From an uncultured Clostridia bacterium (GTDB lineage Bacteria > Bacillota > Clostridia > Oscillospirales > Oscillospiraceae): a DNA stretch of 10,312 nucleotides. The notes beneath the pieces are model-generated. The model ran no database searches and was not told the DNA's origin. It saw only the letters and a list, made by a program, of their open reading frames with translations. Positions 1 through 10,312 of this stretch are shown here, piece by piece. A program made the position numbers and the translations under genes. How positions within the stretch are numbered: the first letter of the stretch is position 1; every line of letters starts with the position of its first letter. The stretch lies in assembly GCA_945867445.1 (NCBI GenBank), contig CAMBID010000012.1, positions 1-10,312 on the forward strand, given 5' to 3'.

Positions 1-52
1 CAGCGGCGCCTTCTTGATAAAAATCAAAGATTTTTATCAAGAAAGAGTATCA
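1..52 (-). repeat. Partial copy of the ATAC...GTAT palindromic element (hairpin-A end)
   Basis: These bases are an exact reverse complement of 8449-8500. They contain a perfect 15-bp inverted repeat, arms 11-25 and 29-43 with a 3-base loop, and the element border ATACTC (minus strand) at 45-50. On the minus strand the element begins right at the hydrolase stop codon: TGA occupies 52-50, and its final A is the first base of the border. The rest of the element lies beyond the left edge of the window. The hairpin follows the hydrolase in its direction of transcription, so it may shape the mRNA 3' end, although it lacks a terminal U-run. Confidence 0.85.
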
Positions 53-2757: not shown

Positions 2758-3165
2758 ATGGCATTTTTGGACGATCTGAGTAAGAAGGCAAAGGACCTGG
2801 CCGCCGCCGCCGGTGAGTTCGCCGTGGCAGCGGGCGAGAAGGCCAAGGACGCCACCGAGGTGGCCAGGATCAACGTGGCCATCGCCTCTGAGCAGCGCGA
2901 CATCGACAAGAACTACCGCAACATTGGCGAGTGGTTCGTTAACGAGTACTCCGGGGAGATCCCCGAGGCCGTGAAGGACCTGGTGGAGGCTGTGGCGGCC
3001 TCCAAGGCCAAGATTGCCGAGCTGGAGGCCAGCAAGCCCGGCAAGGACGAGCCCGGCCCCGCCGGCGAGGCCGAGGCCAAGCCCGGCAAGACCTGCCCCA
3101 TCTGCGGCACGGAGTCTGACAGCAAGTTCTGCCCCCAGTGCGGCGCCCCTATGGGCGAGGAGTAA
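2758..3165 (+). CDS. Small zinc-ribbon protein with helical N-terminal region
   Basis: A 135-residue protein. Residues 1-95 are predicted largely helical, rich in Ala, Lys and Glu with no obvious membrane segment, and resemble amphipathic or coiled-coil sequence. A Pro/Gly/Glu-rich linker (about 96-110) leads to a C-terminal zinc ribbon with CPIC at 113-116 and CPQC at 125-128, the four Cys ligands of a rubredoxin-like knuckle pair. Such short helical-plus-zinc-ribbon proteins are common and uncharacterised in clostridia; the function is unknown. The ATG is preceded by AAGGAGAT at a suitable distance and by its own strong promoter, so it is probably transcribed alone and well. Its TAA stop shares its last base with the border of a palindromic element. 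Confidence 0.9.
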   Translation: MAFLDDLSKKAKDLAAAAGEFAVAAGEKAKDATEVARINVAIASEQRDIDKNYRNIGEWFVNEYSGEIPEAVKDLVEAVAASKAKIAELEASKPGKDEPGPAGEAEAKPGKTCPICGTESDSKFCPQCGAPMGEE

Positions 3166-3309
3166 TACCGATTTCAAAGGAAAGGGTTTCCTTTGAAATC
3201 CCGCGTGTTTCGCGCGCTTTCGGCGTGCGGGATGCGCGCCCGTCTCATAAAAACCTGACGCGCTTTGCGCGATCAAAAGCTTTTCCGGCTTTTTATCAGG
3301 TTTTGGTAT
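3165..3309 (+). repeat. Complete ATAC...GTAT palindromic element, copy 1
   Basis: A 145-bp unit with termini ATACC (3165-3169) and GGTAT (3305-3309). From left to right it holds a perfect 14-bp hairpin (3170-3183 with 3187-3200, loop GGG) and a GC-rich palindromic stretch (CCGC 3201-3204 with GCGG 3227-3230). A branched unit follows: outer stem 3250-3258 with 3296-3304, enclosing hairpin 3259-3263/3267-3271 and hairpin 3275-3280/3288-3293. The last part aligns with 8541-8607 but differs at several stem positions by compensatory pairs. It starts at the last base of the zinc-ribbon stop codon. It has no coding capacity. Confidence 0.85.
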
Positions 3310-3323
3310 CAGTCCCGAAAAGA

Positions 3324-8048: not shown

Positions 8049-8381
8049 GTGGCGATGAAAACTATGGTTAATATTACATTGGAAAAGATAATTCAAAGGA
8101 AAATCCTTTATTGTCAAAACGATAATAATCAGGAGCTTGCCAATATGAATGCAGGCTATGTGCGTGGTTTTAATCAAATGCTTGAAGATATGAATTTGAC
8201 TGAAACTGAATTTATTACAAAGTATTTGAATATAGTAAAAGAATTGAAAGTTGTGTTTGATGGTGTTATTGACCAAAAGGAATCGATCGAAAATATAGAT
8301 GAATTAAGTGGCTATCATAATGCGATTGTAGATATTTTAGGTTTGCTAAACGAAAAATATCTATATTATGAGAATTGGTAA
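8049..8381 (+). CDS. AT-rich small orphan protein, unknown function
   Basis: A 110-residue, acidic, predicted mostly helical protein with no membrane segment, signal, Cys cluster or motif that I recognise. It ends in an aromatic-rich tail (YLYYENW). Codons are A/T-ending (AAT, GAA, TTA, ATA), and base composition is roughly one third G+C in sampled stretches, against clearly more than 60 percent in neighbouring genes, a strong sign of recent acquisition. The start is uncertain: GTG 8049 has GGGAG ten bases upstream, while ATG 8055 and ATG 8064 are also in frame. Isolated AT-rich genes of this size are often immunity, antitoxin or phage-derived proteins, but nothing here shows that. Upstream is a terminator and downstream a palindromic element followed by another terminator. 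Confidence 0.75.
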   Translation: MAMKTMVNITLEKIIQRKILYCQNDNNQELANMNAGYVRGFNQMLEDMNLTETEFITKYLNIVKELKVVFDGVIDQKESIENIDELSGYHNAIVDILGLLNEKYLYYENW

Positions 8382-8449
8382 ATTCCAGTTTGCCGACCGG
8401 CTCCGCTCCGCGCTTGGAGGGAGTAGTCTGCTTCCCGGCGGGGGATTTT

Positions 8450-8610
8450 GATACTCTTTCTTGATAAAAATCTTTGATTTTTATCAAGAAGGCGCCGCTG
8501 TCAGCGTCGCCCTTTTGCGGCAGTCTGCCGCAAAAGCCGTCTCATAAGTTCTTGACGCGCCTGCGGCGCTATAAAAGCTTTTAAAGCTTTTTATCAAGAA
8601 CTAGTATGAG
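8450..8610 (+). repeat. Complete ATAC...GTAT palindromic element, copy 2
   Basis: The core runs 8451-8607 (157 bp) with 20-bp terminal inverted repeats: 8451-8470 and 8588-8607 match at 18 of 20 positions. Inside are hairpin A (perfect 15 bp, 8458-8472 with 8476-8490), hairpin B1 (8491-8499 with 8503-8511, one mismatch) and hairpin B2 (perfect 11 bp, 8512-8522 with 8526-8536). A branched unit follows, with outer stems 8541-8546/8605-8610 and 8547-8555/8594-8602 enclosing 8557-8561/8565-8569 and an AAAAGC...GCTTTT hairpin. Almost no base is left unpaired. The sequence 8449-8500 is repeated exactly, inverted, at 1-52. It carries no coding sequence, so it is either a miniature non-autonomous element or a structured 3' RNA. 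Confidence 0.88.
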
Positions 8611-10190: not shown

Positions 10191-10250
10191 ATACGACTCT
10201 CCCATTAATAAGATAGTTTAATGGGAACCGCCGCGCTTTGCGCGTCGGTG
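10191..10250 (+). repeat. Possible degenerate palindromic element part
   Basis: Begins ATAC like the other elements. It holds an inverted repeat (10200-10208 with 10218-10226, loop 9) and a GC-rich hairpin (10228-10236 with 10240-10248, one mismatch) whose core CGCGC-TTT-GCGCG also occurs at 3259-3271. The order of hairpins parallels the 5' half of the complete copies. Confidence 0.4.
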
Positions 10251-10259
10251 CGTTTCCTA

Positions 10260-10312
10260 ATACTAATTCTTGATAAAAAGATTGAATCAGCAGCGCAGGG
10301 ATATTGGTGCAA
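10260..10312 (-). repeat. Terminus of another palindromic element copy, cut by the window edge
   Basis: Bases 10260-10279 match the reverse complement of the right terminus 8588-8607 at 19 of 20 positions. The following bases resemble the inverted interior rather than hairpin A. This is therefore most likely the right end of a minus-oriented copy whose body lies beyond the window. Confidence 0.65.

Follow-up and report, generated by a model that had tools for sequence, protein, structure and literature searches.

Insertion sequences of the IS630 family are known to generate 2-bp TA target duplications, and transposition by Y1 enzymes is not known to make a target duplication. The mobile repeat bcr1 of the Bacillus cereus group is about 155 bp long, has an elaborate conserved fold and is associated with a 5-bp TTTAT duplication; the Oscillospiraceae repeat family presented here is similar in size and fold but differs in this duplication and in its host. 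In Streptococcus pneumoniae, RUP is a 107-bp non-coding repeat present in 108 intergenic copies, whose targets contain TA, whose terminal repeats resemble the ends of IS630-Spn1 and which is thought to be moved in trans (excerpt of PMC2229807). RUP/IS630-Spn1 and the Oscillospiraceae family are alike as non-coding repeats with IS630-like ends, whereas the TNA target, its 3-bp duplication, the direction, the structure and the placement at stop codons of the latter are not reported for RUP in that excerpt (PMC2229807). The GTAG and CGTC REPs and the BIMEs are palindromic, extragenic and often located downstream of genes, the CGTC REPs having stems of 8-9 bp and loops of 4-5 nt (excerpt of PMC3733652). 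Fot-type pogo transposons, from the IS630-Tc1-mariner group, share with the present family a 3-bp duplication, but they are eukaryotic and duplicate TAA rather than TNA (excerpt of PMC7386202).

The window, i.e. the whole stretch of 10,312 nucleotides that was analysed, is one entire contig (C12) from the assembly of an uncultured Clostridia bacterium (G000; 1.08 Mb in 218 contigs, estimated to be 52% complete). It contains members of a family of repeats that have, like MITEs, no coding capacity and many dispersed copies (Table 1). These repeats are very probably MITEs mobilised in trans by a DDE transposase of the IS630 family with a 3-bp directional TNA target, their stems covarying as DNA palindromes. 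The family is filed here as a variant of IS630-mobilised MITEs that differs from them in target length, direction, structure and placement.

Table 1. Repeat elements and associated features of the window
Feature	Position	Strand	Basis
Young-subfamily element cut at contig start; target triplet at 50-52	1..49	-	100% inverted repeat over 52 nt
Left triplet TAA of older element, also the stop codon of ORF 2758-3165	3163..3165	+	
Complete older-subfamily element, TACC...GGTA, 143 bp, directly 3' of the stop codon of ORF 2758-3165	3166..3308	+	
Target triplet TGA, left of young element	8449..8451	+	
Complete young-subfamily element, TACT...AGTA, 155 bp	8452..8606	+	sequence, fold and own-genome copies
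Hairpin A, 15 perfect pairs, overlapping left terminal repeat	8458..8490	+	fold
Hairpin B	8491..8511	+	fold
Hairpin C, 11 pairs	8512..8536	+	fold
Linker CCGTCTCATA, unpaired	8537..8546	+	
Right-hand branched unit, hairpins E and F enclosed by stem D (8547-8555/8594-8602)	8547..8602	+	fold
Target triplet TGA, right of young element	8607..8609	+	
Another subfamily (TACGACTCTCCCATTAA...), left part of a copy; interruption at TAA 10258-10260	10192..10260	+	by eye, against L002/L061/L069 elements
Third MITE family sharing the terminal repeat: left end, nested at TAA and cut by contig end	10261..10312	+	

The predicted fold of the element consists, in order, of the TACT/AGTA terminal pair, hairpins A, B and C, the unpaired linker and the branched D(E,F) unit. 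Within the linker, CGTCTCATA is kept in most subfamilies. A preliminary description, made from the sequence of the window, had reported two complete copies, which are indeed present at these places once their limits are set without the target triplets (8452-8606 and 3166-3308). Its coordinates for the 9-bp outer stem (8547-8555/8594-8602 and 3250-3258/3296-3304) are correct: pairs 2, 3, 4 and 6 differ between the two copies, as read from the sequence, and each difference is matched on the other arm, and hairpin A is perfect in both, with 15 bp and 14 bp. The edges ATAC...GTAT had to be revised in that the paired ends are real but the element itself is TACT...AGTA, the adjoining A and T belonging to the TNA triplets. 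Similarly, the first of two reported partial copies, at 1-52, is a true copy (the reverse complement of 8449-8500) cut by the contig end, but the second, at 10260-10312, shares only the terminal repeat. This second sequence is part of the third MITE family, which has a complete relative at L047:1335-1493 (159 bp; L102 was also noted) and whose long, quasi-palindromic interior is unlike that of the main family, only the terminal repeat being common to both. The older element has TCA as its right triplet (3309-3311), unequal to TAA on its left, and the copy at 8452 is not itself located on a stop codon. The nearby ORF 8049-8381 (110 aa) is AT-rich amid GC-rich surroundings, and no relative of it was found among the viral contigs scanned.

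The young element occurs at 36 places of its own genome at 98-100% identity, itself included (at least 35 further copies), and at 4 more places at 88-90% identity, each without a piece. All 40 places are near full length and lie in the assembled half of the genome; as the best 40 of 126 candidates were scored, this count is a lower bound. The element at 3166-3308 belongs to an older, diverged set, whose members are 73-89% identical to it and occupy, by our own count among the best 40 of 111 candidates, at least 35 further places without overlap to young copies. The terminal pattern was found at 164 places of the genome (78 forward and 86 reverse, with up to two mismatches), against 0 for the reversed control pattern. 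Among the 100 of these 164 places that were listed, 11 contigs, including the window, start within 85 bases of an element end. Many contigs break inside elements; the family therefore probably fragments its own assembly, and its copy number is probably underestimated.

In the genus, 29 of 86 genomes contain the family (covariance model R1, E <= 0.001), with the best 35 candidates at most scored per genome, a number that G000 and G092 attained. Across the Oscillospiraceae, it was detected in 44 of 400 genomes and 23 of 106 genera (E <= 1e-6, best 7 candidates scored per genome). A pattern drawn on the linker matched at least 80 loci, Oscillibacter valericigenes An890, Oscillibacter, Dysosmobacter, Butyricicoccus and other Oscillospiraceae MAGs being among the matches listed; the covariance model recognised 29 of the 32 loci tested (E <= 0.01), with no match at L277, L286 (Verrucomicrobia group) and L289. 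The covariance-model search proposed in the preliminary description thus returned further copies across genus and family, and neither a lack of copies nor uncompensated differences between stems were encountered; its view of a structured repeat family with compensated stem changes, carried as a non-autonomous element, is supported. The family was called undescribed, and no description was found either in Rfam or in a literature search limited to narrow terms and open-licence papers judged by title and start of abstract.

Variants of the element were also observed. Bare palindromes of 51-55 bp, triplets included, occur without the inner parts, and equal TNA triplets flank 4 of the 7 seen. At L131 (G065 C6), the conserved linker CGTCTCA is split by an insert with its own inverted ends (about 150 bp by eye). 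A second structural class is found in relatives (L122, L123, L124, L132, L086, L094), with elements of 162-176 bp (TACTAATTTTCAATAAAA... or TACTAATTCTTAATAAAA...), of which 5 of 6 are flanked by TTA at each end. Read in reverse, the right flank of 4 of the 6 is a TAA closing a gene-like frame, and this class may also sit at stop codons.

Equal 3-bp TNA triplets flank 95 of 122 elements (TACT...AGTA), the other 27 being without them. In other species, TNA flanks 73 of 83 elements at both ends; the two triplets are equal in 64 of the 73, where 34.2 would be expected. Among the 38 young G000 elements flanked in this way, 32 have equal triplets. The length of the duplication was deduced from an insertion nested in an older copy at TGA (L068), which reads CCTTTGA-element-TGAAATCCCG where other older copies read CCTTTGAAATCCCG: the duplication is therefore 3 bp. 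It is a TNA, not the 2-bp TA of IS630-mobilised MITEs. In element orientation, the 95 equal triplets are TGA (60), TAA (25), TCA (6) and TTA (4), so that the triplet is directional, with 85 TRA (TGA/TAA) against 10 TYA (TCA/TTA). For sites at which neither side has a 30-codon frame ending there, this ratio is 13 to 1; it is 37 to 5 at sites that were not called as stops. Pairing of the linker CTCATA with the right-junction TATGAG was considered as a guide for insertion and dropped, since the base after TGA is G in 20 of 55 cases only. By eye, the linker TCATA-AGAATCC could be a decayed TCA-TACTAGAATCC, the inner end of a nested palindrome, which makes a composite origin a candidate.

A transposase was met through the ends of the MITEs. 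A pattern drawn from these ends, TNA included, gave 54 matches in 17 of the 61 genomes searched, against 2 for the reversed control. At five contig ends of G029 the pattern adjoins the start of an ORF, and one contig end of G070 has the same terminal pattern, the contig stopping before the ORF; as the pattern itself required TNA, the triplet at these six matches is not independent. The 34-residue ORF start has relatives in two of 400 genomes (G340 and G469), bordered by the similar ends TACTATTCTCCAATAAAAAG (left) and TACTAATCTTCAATAAAAAC (right, reversed) with TNA outside. The encoded ORFB belongs to the IS630 family (NF033545, 137.3 bits for a cut-off of 100), while ORFA alone reaches 54.8 bits, below that cut-off; the domains DDE_3 (E 2.7e-21) and HTH_29 correspond to an IS630-type DDE enzyme with a winged-helix N-terminus. 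At L143, L145 and L148 a run of A marks the overlap between the two reading frames and is likely a slippery site for a frameshifted transposase. The right end of the insertion sequence (IS) reads AGTA then TNA in 8 of the 10 loci examined (L143, L145, L147-L154), L147 and L149 having no such end. Left ends follow TRA in 9 of 10 copies and the right triplets are TRA in 5 of 8. The full-length copy at L148 (G068) has TAA on both sides, and its first frame holds stops by eye. Two other candidates for an autonomous element were rejected: the related IS630 transposase encoded by G075 C7 has no TACT ends, and C4:11575-14124, selected on end spacing, consists of two separate short elements around ordinary genes.

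The suggestion of the preliminary description to look for a transposase with matching ends was thus borne out in related genomes, although none was found in the host's own assembly. ORFB relatives were found in 6 of 86 genomes of the genus and none in G000 (52% complete, 218 contigs); since 29 of the 86 genomes have elements and 4 of the 6 transposase-bearing genomes are among them, the co-occurrence is weak. The elements could be moved by another enzyme, the IS630-type element merely having similar ends or the same target. This would account for the lack of the transposase both in the assembled half of this genome and in the majority of the genomes of the genus that carry elements, as well as for TNA instead of TA, but the transposase was reached via the MITE end pattern and is bounded in several species by TACT...AGTA ends with TNA outside, which makes another enzyme improbable. 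A family of REP/REPIN type mobilised by a RAYT (Y1) tyrosine transposase, as the preliminary description had also envisaged, is hardly credible: the family has short ends and hairpins, and CGTC-tagged REPs are known in other phyla (excerpt of PMC3733652), but the 3-bp target duplications and the ends common to an IS630-type DDE transposase speak against it. The family resembles the GTAG and CGTC REPs and the BIMEs in being palindromic, extragenic and frequently placed downstream of genes, CGTC moreover opening its conserved linker, and it differs from the CGTC REPs, as far as the excerpt describes them, in its length of 130-170 bp, two TACT ends, target duplication and IS630-type enzyme (PMC3733652). 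Its stem D has the 8-9 bp of a CGTC-tagged REP stem but encloses two hairpins. By the duplication test, the family is not a REP.

Mobilisation by an IS630-type transposase, which we consider the best reading, is to be set beside the position of the elements relative to genes. In sense orientation, 51 of 119 copies (37 of 83 in other species and 14 of 36 young G000 elements) have as their left triplet the stop codon, in frame, of a gene lying upstream, against 5 of 118 for the antisense equivalent (4 of 82 and 1 of 36); genes were called strictly, with 38 open codons and GC3 minus GC2 of at least 0.25. Gene-like frames ending in the other two frames together number 3 in other species and 0 for the young G000 elements. 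The frame that ends at a left TGA or TAA is open over at least 40 codons in 44 of 66 cases, compared with 48 of 132 for the other two frames. Among 59 elements with long flanks, the distance to the upstream stop piles up at zero for 23, against 3 in antisense. These 23 make up most of the 35 elements located within 150 nt of a gene stop, where 6.4 would be expected under uniform TNA and 8.6 with the target preference, and of the 29 located within 60 nt (expected 10.5 and 14.4, respectively). Target choice and tolerance were therefore rejected as the whole cause: with 23 elements for 8.6 to 14.4 expected, part of the pile-up remains unexplained. Directional target choice and loss of harmful insertions explain much of it, though perhaps not the whole. 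Among the IS copies, a gene-like stop is found at 2 of 10 left ends and at none of the 8 right ends; the stop-codon placement is thus established for the MITEs and not for the IS.

The sites without an element were read at ORF 2758-3165, the gene of the older window copy, which has matches in 22 related genomes. In 18 of 19 orthologous loci, TAA or TGA stands at the same place and is followed by no element, with a terminator-like hairpin by eye; at the nineteenth (L375) the script chose another frame. It is conceivable, though rather doubtful, that transposase and element together actively seek out stop codons, inserting in sense orientation through a directional T-Y-TGA-D target or the sensing of gene ends (e.g. 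translation termination or transcript 3' ends), spreading without gene damage, the architecture and linker serving the targeting.

Compensated changes in the stems were assessed on 20 elements from seven species (36 pairs), which are related to one another. Paired cells amount to 94.1%, compared with 82.8% in 500 shuffles and 37-51% with partners slid, the excess over the slid controls being partly built in since the fold was derived from the same 20 sequences. Double changes affect 23 pairs (12.1 in shuffles) and 81 cells (21.5 in shuffles, 81 being reached in none of the 500), and further pair types number 36 (30.0 in shuffles, 3 of 500 reaching 36). Such covariation had been taken as a possible sign of a functional RNA; on this reading the element would be a 3' UTR regulator or a processing or stability element whose stems are kept by selection on the transcript. 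The sense orientation behind genes, with 51 stop codons in sense and 5 in antisense, and the conservation of the unpaired linker would agree with it. Under this selection, G-T (G-U in the transcript) should be far above A-C, because both arise alike from transitions in double-stranded DNA. The 96 distinct rows of stems gave 3078 Watson-Crick, 59 G-T, 69 A-C and 144 other pairs. Many mismatches of old copies are later decay, and the consensus figures bear on the active elements: 264 Watson-Crick, 4 G-T, 5 A-C and 14 other for the eight subfamilies with at least two members, and 915, 24, 26 and 48, respectively, for all 30 clusters. By comparison, 36 tRNAs, taken from loci in three genomes of the genus, gave in their acceptor and T stems 390 Watson-Crick, 39 G-T, 2 A-C and 1 other; the test therefore detects RNA selection where it is present, and neither such selection nor strand-specific pairing is visible here. 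The wobble signature being absent, the direction bias persisting without a gene-like frame at the site (13 to 1), bare palindromes existing without inner parts (4 of 7 with equal TNA triplets) and Rfam giving 7 matches at E up to 1, all below gathering scores, a functional RNA is very improbable. The hairpins look preserved as DNA palindromes, not as working RNA, and the family is not a demonstrated RNA.

For MITEs moved by an IS630-family enzyme, the following mechanism can be proposed. The transposase would recognise ends of about 18 bp (roughly TACTNNNNTYNNATAAAA) and duplicate a 3-bp TNA target read directionally, the left end following TGA or TAA as in 85 of the 95 elements with equal triplets. 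Both TGA and TAA terminate translation, so that an insertion at such a codon would restore it on the left of the new copy and leave the gene intact. Many surviving copies would for this reason be found in sense, downstream of a gene's stop codon and ahead of its terminator. Covariation of the stems would follow from their being DNA palindromes, of which two overlap the terminal repeats. Their coordinated change would most likely result from hairpin-templated correction combined with the need for two matching ends, rather than from selection on transcripts; the conserved unpaired CGTCTCATA is not explained by such a correction.

Repeats of this kind break assemblies of gut bacteria that are uncultured. 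Comparing wobble pairs with those of tRNAs offers a simple way to separate DNA palindromes from RNA structures when covariation by itself is ambiguous. For IS630-type systems, a 3-bp target read with a direction would widen the known abilities of the group, and a self-spreading element able to insert at stop codons and rebuild them would be nature's answer to the problem of adding DNA without breaking genes.
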